40,349 nucleotides of DNA from a virus. A program made the translations under genes and the position numbers. This document shows, piece after piece, positions 3,146 to 8,472 of this stretch; the stretch's first letter is position 1, and the number at the start of each line of letters is the position of its first letter. The notes under the pieces were generated by a model. That model did no database searches and was not told the DNA's origin. It was given only the letters and a program-made list of their open reading frames with translations. Where the stretch lies: positions 1 to 40,349 of IMG/VR virus record IMGVR_UViG_3300046336_000236; one strand, given 5' to 3'.

Positions 3146-3685
3146 ATGGAAATTTGGAAAGATATAGTTTGATATGATGGCTTGTATGAAGTCAGTAATT
3201 TTGGAAGGATTAAAAGCAAAATGTTCAAAAATTGAACTACATCATTTAAAAGAGATAAAATTTTAAAACAAAAAATACATTATTCATGATATGTATTTTG
3301 TGAATTAAAAAAAAGAAGATATTCATTACATCGGATAGTAGCAAATACTTTCATACAAAATCCAGAAGATAAAAGGACAGTTAATCATATAAACTGAATT
3401 AAAACAGATAATCGTGTTGAGAATTTGGAGTGGGCAACAGATAGTGAGAATATTAAACATTGCTATGATATATGATTAAGAAAGTGAATAAACTTAAATA
3501 AGTTTTGAAAAAATTGCACATCATCAAAAAAAGTATATCAATATAGTATGGATTGAAATCTTATAAGGGAGTGGGAATGTTGAATGCAAATAAAAAGAGA
3601 ATTATGATTTAGTAGATGAAATATATCTGCATGCTGAATTTGATTACAAAAAAGTGCTTATTGATTTATTTGGAAATATAACTAA
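3146..3685 (+). CDS. NUMOD4-HNH homing endonuclease with C-terminal DNA-binding repeat
   Basis: 179 residues. NUMOD4 domain at the start (IWKDIVGYDGLYEVSNFGRI), then the HNH core (LHRIVANTF ... VNHINGIKTDNRVENLEWAT), then a NUMOD1-like helix-turn-helix repeat at the C-terminus (VYQYSMDGNLIREWECGMQI). Many TGA-Gly codons are present, including the glycines of GYDGLY and HINGIK. Such proteins cut specific DNA sites and promote their own insertion. It has its own promoter and structured leader and ends 4 bp before the intact HNH gene at 3690, whose displaced start lies upstream. It is AT-rich compared with neighbours, which fits recent arrival. Confidence 0.9.
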
Positions 3686-3689
3686 TACT

Positions 3690-4052
3690 ATGTCAACAAT
3701 CAACAAATACAAGTATCAGAAGCTCCTAAAAAGACAGAATTATTTATGTTTCTACTGCTTGCAACCTTTTGCGACAAAACGAAATAGCGTGAATGCTCTC
3801 AGAAAGGCTACAGTAGATCATATTGTACCGAGATGCGAACTCCAGTGACTCACTCATATCGAGCAGAACACTAGGAACAATTGTCTCGCTTGTGTAGAGT
3901 GTAACCGCAGGAAAGCCAATATCTCCGCTGTGTTATTTTTGAAGTGATACGAGGCTCTGAATATATCAGAGTGGGATGTACAAAGTGAATATGTAGCAGT
4001 GAAAACGAGAGGGGCGAGGCGATGGTATCATAGATATTTTAACTGGAAATAG
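3690..4052 (+). CDS. HNH endonuclease (zinc-finger type)
   Basis: 120 residues with the classical CxxC...DHIVPR...N-CLACVECN arrangement: zinc pair CFYC (about 20-23), DHI at about 46-48, then CxxC in CVEC. Two TGA-Gly codons. The fold resembles McrA-like HNH proteins found in many phages, sometimes beside packaging genes and sometimes freestanding. A related truncated start lies upstream at 2964, separated by the NUMOD4-HNH gene. The next tiny gene begins 1 bp after the stop. Confidence 0.85.
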
Positions 4053-5014: not shown

Positions 5015-5263
5015 ATGCCAGAAGTATCAAATCTCCCAGACGGACTATCATTCGGACAGAAAGCAGTCTGACTCAGTTTTAATCCATCAGGAAATGATGA
5101 AGTAGCTCTTGCAAAACAAGAGTGTGCCAATCTCATCGACCATATGAATACTCTCCGACTCACTACGGAGAGTGGAGAAGCAAAACGACTCTGTTCTGTG
5201 GCTATCACTGAGTTACAGACCGCTCAGATGTGGGTAGTAAAAGCTCTCACATGGAAAGACTAA
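5015..5263 (+). CDS. Acb2/Tad1-type hairpin protein (probable anti-CBASS/anti-Thoeris sponge)
   Basis: 82 residues: a loop-rich start with GLSFNPSGND, then two helices joined by TTESGEAKRLC and ending AITELQTAQMWVVKALTW. This helical-hairpin pattern with a conserved S-x-A-x-T-x-x-x-x-A-x-M-W tail matches the Acb2/Tad1 family, whose members bind cyclic nucleotides or gcADPR and hide the signal of CBASS and Thoeris immunity. The Gly at position 19 is TGA. Expected to act in the host cytoplasm as an oligomer. The assignment is from remembered sequence pattern only; it could be a relative with another ligand. It lies just upstream of the split tRNA. Confidence 0.6.
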
Positions 5264-5269
5264 TCATAT

Positions 5270-5290
5270 CCGAGAGTCTCGAACTCTCGG
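5270..5290 (+). other. 7-bp hairpin just upstream of the tRNA
   Basis: CCGAGAG (5270-5276) and CTCTCGG (5284-5290) form a perfect stem with loop TCTCGAA. It resembles a tRNA T-arm but has no acceptor strand or CCA next to it. It lies 5 bp before the mature tRNA start and may aid processing or mark the end of the upstream transcript; no T tract follows. Confidence 0.45.
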
Positions 5291-5340
5291 TATACGCAGT
5301 GGTAACCCTAGTGGTAAGGGCGTGGTTTTCAAAACCACTA

Positions 5341-5368
5341 TTGATTTTTGAATCAATATAAATATAAT
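5341..5368 (+). promoter_or_regulatory. Promoter inside the tRNA insert
   Basis: TTGATT (5341-5346), 16-bp spacer, TATAAT (5363-5368). Six bases later comes the ATG of the HNH gene, so transcription would start on or next to the start codon and give a leaderless mRNA. The insert therefore brings its own promoter and does not need the tRNA promoter. Confidence 0.7.
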
Positions 5369-5374
5369 CATTTT

Positions 5375-5809
5375 ATGATTAAAAAATGTATTACCTGCGA
5401 AGTAGATAAAGATATTCTATTTTTTTCAAAAAGAAGAGTAAGAAAGGATTGAACTCAAATGTATAATTCAGTATGTAAATTATGTCATAGAGCTGAAGCT
5501 AGGGAAGCATATAGAAATAATAAAGATACATATCTTCCAAAAATACTTGCAAATAAAAAAAAGAATTATGCGATTTATAGAGAAGAAATGCTAGTCTTCT
5601 TAAAAACAAAATCTTGTTTTGATTGTTGAACAAAGGATTTTAGAGTACTAGAATTTGATCACTTAAGAGATAAGAAATATAATATCTCTGATAAAAAGTC
5701 ATCAAGATTATCATCTCTAATGGAAGAAATAAATAAATGTGATGTAGTATGCTGTAACTGTCACCGAATAAGAACAATGAAAAGAGCAAATTCATACAGA
5801 GTAAAATAA
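5375..5809 (+). CDS. HNH endonuclease inserted in the tRNA
   Basis: 144 residues with two TGA-Gly codons. Zinc-binding pairs CITC and CKLC near the start, CFDC in the centre, then LEFDHLRDKKYNIS and the closing CCNCHRIRTMKR, the layout of small phage HNH proteins of the WHH/HNH zinc-ribbon type. It sits between the anticodon stem and T stem of the UCA tRNA with only about 36 bp before and 22 bp after it, far too little for a group I or II ribozyme outside the ORF. It probably spreads by cutting uninterrupted tRNA genes. Confidence 0.85.
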
Positions 5810-5883
5810 TTTTTTCATATTTTTATATATCTATCCCGAGTTCGAACCTCGGTCACTGCTCCATTTTTTAACAACCAACTCTT

Positions 5884-7307: not shown

Positions 7308-7778
7308 CTAGATTATGAGTTTACAAAACTCTGTTACCTTGACGAGATCGTTTGCGTGGAGATTATAGAATCCTTTGTCTCCCCATTGATCACCCCAAGT
7401 GTTCTGGACTCTCAGGAGACGAGTATCTGGATTATATCATACTATCGTACAGTTGTGAGCCCCGATATGTTCATCGAATACTGCTCTATAGGGTGGCTTT
7501 CCTGTCAGATCCCAGTCTACCCCATTCACATTACAAATTAGAGGGATTCAACGGTTTAAAAGGGCTTTTGCCTGTAATCTCGGAACAGCTTCATATCCTT
7601 TGATAAAGCCACGAGCCTTGAAAAACTCGCCTGCCTTGCGATTAGTTAGCATTCCTGCTTTATCCTCATTTATTGCTGATATAACAGCATCACTATCTAT
7701 ATTAGGACTCATAATAGATAGAGCTGTGAGGAATCAGTACCCTTTGCACTCTGGATGTGTACCCTGATTGTAGATCAT
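7308..7778 (-). CDS. Papain-like cysteine peptidase
   Basis: 156 residues. Papain-type motifs appear in order: NQGTHPECKGYGF (oxyanion Gln then catalytic Cys, about residues 5-11), GAHNCTIVGYN (catalytic His), QNTWGDQWGDKGFYNL (catalytic Asn and the WG pair of C1A peptidases). TGA supplies glycines in GYGF and VGYN. There is no signal or propeptide. Lying in a lysis cassette it may cut peptidoglycan stem peptides or host surface proteins; that is inference. A displaced alternative start of the same gene lies at 8450-8518, beyond the NUMOD4-HNH gene. Confidence 0.8.
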
Positions 7779-7831: not shown

Positions 7832-7908
7832 TAGTTATTCGTACTAACTAAGAAATTTTATTTATGCTACTCAGGTACGAACTGGGAAGCAGAAATAAGA
7901 TTTTTTTT
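7832..7908 (+). promoter_or_regulatory. Structured leader related to the one at 3073-3140
   Basis: It contains TTCGTACTAAC, as in the first HNH leader. TTCGTAC pairs with GTACGAA, which sits in the loop of a small hairpin (CTCAG/CTGGG). A second long-range helix pairs AAATTTTATTT with AAATAAGATTT (one G-U), and a T8 tract follows immediately before the ATG at 7909. Two interleaved helices plus a terminal T tract repeat the design of the first leader although most of the sequence differs. Confidence 0.6.
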
Positions 7909-8472
7909 ATGAATGAAATTTGGAAACCAATTTTAGGATACGAGTGATTGTATGAAGTAAGTAATTTATGAAAAGTAAAATCATTAAAATATAGATGAAC
8001 TAATAATGAAAAATTATTAAAATTAACAGCTTCATCTGTTTGATATTATATGATTAGACTTTGTAAAAACAAAATATGAATAAATACAAATGTTCATAGA
8101 ATCGTCGCGGAAAACTTTCTGATAAATTTAGAGCTAAAGAGAACCGTAAATCACAAAAACTGAATTAAAACAGATAACCGAGTAGAAAATCTTGAATGGT
8201 GTACACATAAGGAAAATACTAGGCACGCATTCTCATTATGATTACAAAAATGAATGTTTTGAAAAAATAATCCCAACTTTTGAAAATTTTGAAAGGATCA
8301 TAATAGATCAAAATCTGTTATACAATTTACTAGAGAGTGAGAATTTATACGAGAATGGTGATCTATTTCAGAATGTTCTTTACATCTTTGAATTAGCAGA
8401 ACACTAATAATAAATTGTTGTAAAACTAGACGACATATCTCATCTTGATCTACTTTTGTATATAAAGTTTAG
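7909..8472 (+). CDS. NUMOD4-HNH homing endonuclease
   Basis: 187 residues. NUMOD4 (IWKPILGYEGLYEVSNLGKV), HNH core (VHRIVAENFL ... [20 protein letters not shown]), a Gly/Asn linker and a NUMOD1-like C-terminal repeat (VIQFTREGEFIREWGSI). Many glycines are TGA. It is closely related in layout to the protein at 3146. It lies on the plus strand inside a minus-strand cassette. Its 3' end overlaps the displaced start of the cysteine peptidase gene by 23 bp. Confidence 0.9.

Follow-up and report, generated by a model that had tools for sequence, protein, structure and literature searches.

The 40,349-bp stretch of viral DNA analyzed here (positions 1 to 40,349 of IMG/VR record IMGVR_UViG_3300046336_000236; hereafter, the window) carries a tRNA-Gly(UCA) gene, expected to read TGA codons, that is interrupted precisely by an HNH endonuclease gene. 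This arrangement is one instance of a strategy that an entire HNH family appears to use repeatedly, directed at the anticodon arms of tRNA genes and normally accompanied by a rescue tRNA. We consider it likely that this is a family of free-standing homing endonucleases targeting anticodon arms, that the window copy broke the TGA-reading tRNA without bringing a rescue, and that the host covers the loss.

The interrupted gene spans 5296-5863 on the plus strand, with the insert placed between the anticodon arm and the T arm. Its 5' half (5296-5342) comprises the 5' strand of the acceptor stem, the D arm, the anticodon arm and the first four nucleotides of the variable loop; the anticodon arm, GTGGT-TTTCAAA-ACCAC (5322-5338), is perfect, with the anticodon TCA at 5329-5331. 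The 3' half (5835-5863) supplies the last base of the variable loop, followed from 5836 by a perfect T arm, CCGAG-TTCGAAC-CTCGG, the acceptor 3' strand TCACTGC, T73 (U73 in the tRNA) and an encoded CCA. The anticodon and T arms lie 497 nt apart, and the acceptor strands of the two halves pair at 7 of 7 positions. Under code 25, ARAGORN identified the fused halves as tRNA-Gly(tca). An uninterrupted copy was sought in related phages and is present in IMGVR_UViG_3300046313_000544 (L002/G001), where it sets the borders of the insert. The fused halves are identical to this empty site at 76 of 76 nucleotides, so they do not represent a chance match; nearby aligned segments of the two phages are 69-97% identical. 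The claim of the initial annotation that the tRNA for TGA is interrupted by an HNH gene was thus borne out by an exact insertion.

The criteria reported for a code-25 tRNA-Gly(UCA) are the UCA anticodon, G1:C72, C2:G71, G3:C70 and U73 (PMC8629427). The window tRNA has the UCA anticodon, G1:C72, C2:G71 and U73; G3:C70 is absent, with A3:U70 in both this tRNA and that of G001. ARAGORN and Rfam detected no intact tRNA in the 40,349-bp window, the sole RF00005 match at E<=10 (15.7 bits) was a chance match inside an HNH gene, and a scan for a T arm together with an anticodon arm revealed no second tRNA. The earlier observation that no other tRNA is visible therefore holds within the window; the record may be a fragment, with a second tRNA-Gly(UCA) possibly lying outside it. 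Shortly before the 5' end of the tRNA gene, an inverted T-arm-like hairpin, GAGAG-TTCGAGA-CTCTC, occurs on the minus strand (5272-5288), of which G001 retains only part.

Relative to the empty site, the insert occupies 5343-5834 in the variable loop (plus strand, 492 bp, ends ambiguous by 1 bp). It consists of an HNH open reading frame (5375-5809, plus strand, 144 aa), which contains two TGA(Gly) codons, and 57 nt of non-coding sequence, in agreement with the roughly 58 bp originally estimated to lie outside the reading frame. A promoter had also been read in the insert. A sigma-70-like consensus match, TTGATT-16-TATAAT, does exist at 5341-5368 on the plus strand, but it is not clearly above shuffled sequence. 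The left end of the insert also carries an AT-rich 8-bp hairpin (5339-5358, plus strand), and the left border lies in strong structure (fold z -3.4).

The HNH protein matched the phrog_2255 profile over residues 1-141 (E 1.6e-26), whereas Pfam returned no HNH match for the 144-aa protein. In an alignment of 15 HNH sequences, C5, C8, C34, C37, C81, C84, D95, H96, C122, C126 and H130 are invariant and N128 and C129 nearly so, indicating that the predicted catalytic and zinc-binding residues are intact. The AlphaFold model has a mean pLDDT of 85; Foldseek found no significant PDB match, and its weak top matches are HNH (beta-beta-alpha-Me) nucleases. The GIY-YIG domain is absent from the window endonuclease, which belongs to the HNH family instead.

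The gene that immediately precedes the split tRNA, and that probably shares its direction of transcription, is Acb2/Tad1-like (anti-CBASS-like): its product, encoded at 5015-5263 on the plus strand, matched the Acb2/Tad1 hairpin domain (PF24729) with 38.5 bits against a cut-off of 27. Small genes lie downstream of the split tRNA. Three further HNH genes (3146-3685, 3690-4052 and 7864-8472; two NUMOD4-HNH_3 and one HNH) are found within about 5.5 kb, so putative homing endonuclease genes are abundant in this phage. A papain-family (Peptidase_C1) cysteine protease gene is located at 7308-7778 on the minus strand.

The window genome uses code 25, in which TGA encodes glycine. Long open reading frames cover 0.64 of the sequence with TGA as glycine and 0.14 with TGA as stop (code 11), and the TGA codons of the large terminase gene (TerL) align mostly with glycine in relatives. 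G002, a relative that is about as long (41.8 kb) and whose TerL is 58% identical, also uses code 25 and contains zero tRNA genes, suggesting that a host tRNA probably suffices. TGA decoding for the phage is thus probably covered by a host tRNA-Gly(UCA). A genome scan for tRNA-Gly(UCA) with an overly narrow pattern that required T32 gave four chance matches, none of them a tRNA.

To place the window endonuclease in its family, we assembled 190 distinct loci from three IMG/VR collections of HNH relatives and part of a cultured-phage set. A complete tRNA is found no more than about 60 nt away in 94 of the 190 HNH loci, and the same is true of 76 of 117 full-length HNH genes. The tRNAs flanking HNH genes are overwhelmingly on the same strand (110, versus 5 on the opposite strand). 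In cultured phages (Felix O1, mycobacteriophages, Streptomyces, Pseudomonas, Erwinia and other phages), the relatives are mostly located between or beside same-strand tRNA genes. In Streptomyces phage PumpkinSpice (L289, 454-1190) and phage WhereRU (L208), a pair of tRNA-Pro(UGG) genes stands on either side of, or next to, the HNH gene, with orphan T arms nearby. A 17-mer match in another locus (L001) was rejected as chance.

Split tRNAs recur in this family. We searched for an orphan 5' half upstream and an orphan T arm downstream of the HNH gene, requiring 7 of 7 acceptor pairs, and found a split tRNA around the HNH gene in 11 of the 190 loci (the window, L042, L043, L055, L066, L077, L097, L141, L142, L183 and L275), where 0.43 were expected from halves re-paired between loci and 0.18 from pseudo-inserts within the same loci. 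The anticodon loop and the variable loop mark the two extremes of the insertion points, except in L275, where the break is in the D loop. The HNH genes of L055 and L066 end with a stop codon that falls within the T arm or at its border.

In 8 of the 11 split loci, the insert contains a complete tRNA with the anticodon of the broken one: Lys-UUU, Arg-ACG and Val-UAC twice each, and Arg-CCG and Trp-CCA once each; the tRNA-Val of L097 was missed by ARAGORN and identified by eye. L275 contains a tRNA-Pro(UGG) within a split tRNA that has a Pro-type acceptor and has lost its own anticodon. The inserted tRNAs, judging from their sequences, are not copies of the broken ones, with about 47-71% identity over the 5' 38 nt and different anticodon stems. 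The simplest reading is that each same-anticodon tRNA is a rescue copy that is itself not cut.

Only the window and L055 lack a rescue-type tRNA in the insert. L055 (1420-1929) holds a split tRNA-Arg(UCG) with all stems intact and the HNH stop codon inside the T stem, and the rest of this fragment, with about 40 tRNAs, contains no other tRNA-Arg(UCG). The anticodon stem is kept in both rescue-less loci (where all stems are intact) versus 2 of the 8 with a rescue (Fisher p about 0.13), a difference that gives some scope for the rescue-less split tRNAs being functional. L141 and L183 have the insertion beyond an intact anticodon stem, yet carry a same-anticodon tRNA. The same-anticodon tRNAs of most split loci argue that splitting usually inactivates a tRNA, even where this stem is preserved.

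The leaders of the HNH genes provide a further link to the anticodon loop. With complete tRNAs masked out, we searched upstream of the HNH reading frame in 92 loci for the six-nucleotide anticodon loop of the adjacent tRNA. A direct copy was present in 29 of the 92 leaders (7.9 expected), an inverted copy in 24 (9.0 expected), and both together in 18 (1.9 expected). None of 2,000 shuffles matched the observed counts, although a few of the loci are related to one another, which inflates the excess to some degree. Examples include CCCCTACGAAGTT-7-AACTTCGTAGGGG beside Arg-ACG in L010/L072, an arrangement present in the leader of the cultured Streptomyces phage JimJam, and TTCTGCAAAAT-8-ATTTTGCAGAA beside Cys-GCA in L273; direct and inverted repeats also occur in L042, L066, L141, L158, L159 and others. 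In the window, TTCAAAA (5328-5334) is followed after an 11-nt spacer by TTTTGAA (5346-5352, within the insert), forming an inverted repeat at 5328-5352 on the plus strand; it is weak alone (shuffle p=0.068), but the arrangement recurs in the HNH family. These repeats suggest that the HNH enzyme may recognize the anticodon loop of its target tRNA. By analogy with I-TevI, we conjecture that they could also serve as an autoregulatory operator.

Any restoration of the split tRNA by splicing has to be reconciled with the anatomy of the insert. HNH genes are common in group I and group II introns, and group I introns sit in the anticodon region of bacterial tRNA genes, sometimes with a homing endonuclease. 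This precedent favors a degenerate self-splicing intron carrying the HNH gene, and the placement in the anticodon region is the same; the window insert, in contrast, has no ribozyme or splice-site features. Rfam detected no intron in the window at the gathering cut-off or at E<=5, where only chance tmRNA and CRISPR fragments appeared, and ARAGORN in intron mode found none either. A group I intron was rejected, as only 57 non-coding nt are available with neither a catalytic core nor a terminal G; on the plus strand, there are zero G residues from the last HNH codons to the T stem, confirming the earlier remark that no G stands near the 3' border. A group II intron was likewise rejected for lack of a domain V and of an Rfam match, and the insert begins with GATTT and ends with CTAT where group II ends would read GUGYG...AY. 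The initial exclusion of a self-splicing intron therefore stands, and we regard such an intron as extremely improbable. An archaeal-type tRNA intron would have a bulge-helix-bulge (BHB) at both borders; on inspection, the minimum-energy fold showed separate hairpins and no obvious BHB. A new protein-dependent splicing system that removes the insert and ligates the halves would be permitted by the exact insert and intact halves, and the strong structure around the left border (z -3.4) would be in keeping with it. Against this, the 11 split loci share no border sequence or structure, the insertion points are not fixed, with the anticodon loop and the variable loop as extremes, and the HNH stop codons of L055 and L066 lie in or beside the T arm. 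The same-anticodon tRNAs in 8 of 11 inserts would be superfluous if splicing took place, which makes restoration of the split tRNA in this way hard to explain. The new kind of tRNA splicing raised in the initial annotation thus found no positive evidence, and we consider it very improbable; its alternative, that the endonuclease broke the tRNA of the phage while that of the host is enough, receives better support from these inserts and by the tRNA-less code-25 relative.

The split tRNA-Gly(UCA) might nevertheless still function, either as an unligated two-piece molecule with a nick in the variable loop or after an unfamiliar ligation, and we regard this as unlikely. In its unligated form, which we consider quite unlikely, ordinary RNases would cut at the insert borders and the halves would assemble as they are, in the manner of the divided NrdA of phage Aeh1, which functions as two separate polypeptides. 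Every stem is intact in both the window and L055, the unligated halves co-fold to a full cloverleaf (-28.2 kcal/mol), and they match the tRNA of the relative fully though nearby segments are only 69-97% identical. A recent insertion accounts equally well for such intact halves, however, and the same-anticodon tRNAs of L141 and L183, which keep the anticodon stem, speak against a working two-piece tRNA. If the split tRNA did function, a parasite-interrupted gene would supply an obligate codon-reassignment tRNA. A further reading, which we hold to be decidedly unlikely, is that the HNH enzyme is a weapon that cuts the tRNA-Gly(UCA) genes of rival phages or of the host while the split tRNA shields its own genome. 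The reuse of anticodon-loop sequence in the family leaders is consistent with the recognition this would require, and G001 has an uninterrupted and presumably cuttable copy; this reading is compatible with the homing explanation and would add to it. Because the contig is metagenomic, an assembly chimera or annotation artefact was also considered. One of the two TGA codons of the HNH gene encodes G85, the glycine of a C-x-x-C-G zinc motif. This glycine does not vary among 9 aligned sequences and hardly varies among 15, indicating that the insert is native to a genome in which TGA means glycine and that a chimera is therefore unlikely. Moreover, the insertion is exact to within a single base and ten further loci are organized in the same way, making an artefact highly improbable.

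In the homing explanation that we prefer, the phrog_2255 HNH relatives would recognize the anticodon arms of certain tRNA genes and, by DNA cleavage and homing, place their own gene immediately 3' of the anticodon, in the stretch that separates the anticodon loop from the variable loop. Often, a divergent tRNA sharing that anticodon would be carried along, so that the invaded phage keeps the function, in a manner resembling home-and-rescue. This rescue would apply to the relatives only. The window HNH gene would have entered the variable loop of tRNA-Gly(UCA) with no rescue tRNA, and the interrupted gene most likely yields no intact tRNA; a tRNA-Gly(UCA) of the code-25 host would then read the TGA codons of both the phage and the endonuclease. 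The initial annotation had envisaged a homing enzyme aimed at the very tRNA on which its own decoding relies. The targeting part of this idea is supported, but decoding of the enzyme can rely on the host tRNA.

Several known systems resemble parts of this explanation. SegB of T-even phages is a GIY-YIG endonuclease that cuts inside tRNA genes and spreads or amplifies the tRNA region (PMC13096335), and HNH genes are known in mycobacteriophage tRNA arrays (PMC5966550, PMC6409571). SegB-like genes and the window HNH gene are alike in being free-standing endonuclease genes tied to phage tRNA genes; SegB, however, is of the GIY-YIG type and located between tRNA genes, whereas the split loci of the window family have an HNH gene inside a tRNA gene, in most cases accompanied within the insert by a tRNA of identical anticodon. 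In phage Aeh1, nrdA is split by the HNH homing endonuclease MobE (PMC2988022). Both MobE and the window HNH gene are intronless and interrupt a gene with no splicing elements, but the target of MobE is a protein gene, while that of the window HNH is a tRNA gene, for which most split-locus relatives carry a replacement. The leader of I-TevI can hold a copy of the homing site that is used for autorepression (PMC2988022). The anticodon-loop repeats upstream of the HNH genes resemble this operator logic, although I-TevI is an intron-encoded GIY-YIG enzyme and the window HNH has no intron and only a putative autoregulation.

Engineered cleave-and-rescue and home-and-rescue drives disrupt a gene while supplying a recoded version of it. 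The HNH family differs in being natural and in that the rescue would be a divergent isoacceptor tRNA, with the window member lacking one. In the literature searched, we found no account of tRNA genes that contain an HNH gene together with a same-anticodon replacement, although an earlier partial description is possible, and none that combines a phage split tRNA with a homing endonuclease.

These results suggest a reason for the occurrence of HNH genes in phage tRNA arrays, which has been noticed for years without a clear explanation, and point to a natural counterpart of engineered home-and-rescue drives. Such invasion and replacement would help explain the diversification and turnover of phage tRNA repertoires. 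The window represents an extreme case, in which the tRNA for a reassigned stop codon was invaded with no rescue and the phage evidently tolerates this. It shows the extent to which a phage can rely on the code machinery of its host or, alternatively, points to a working two-piece tRNA.
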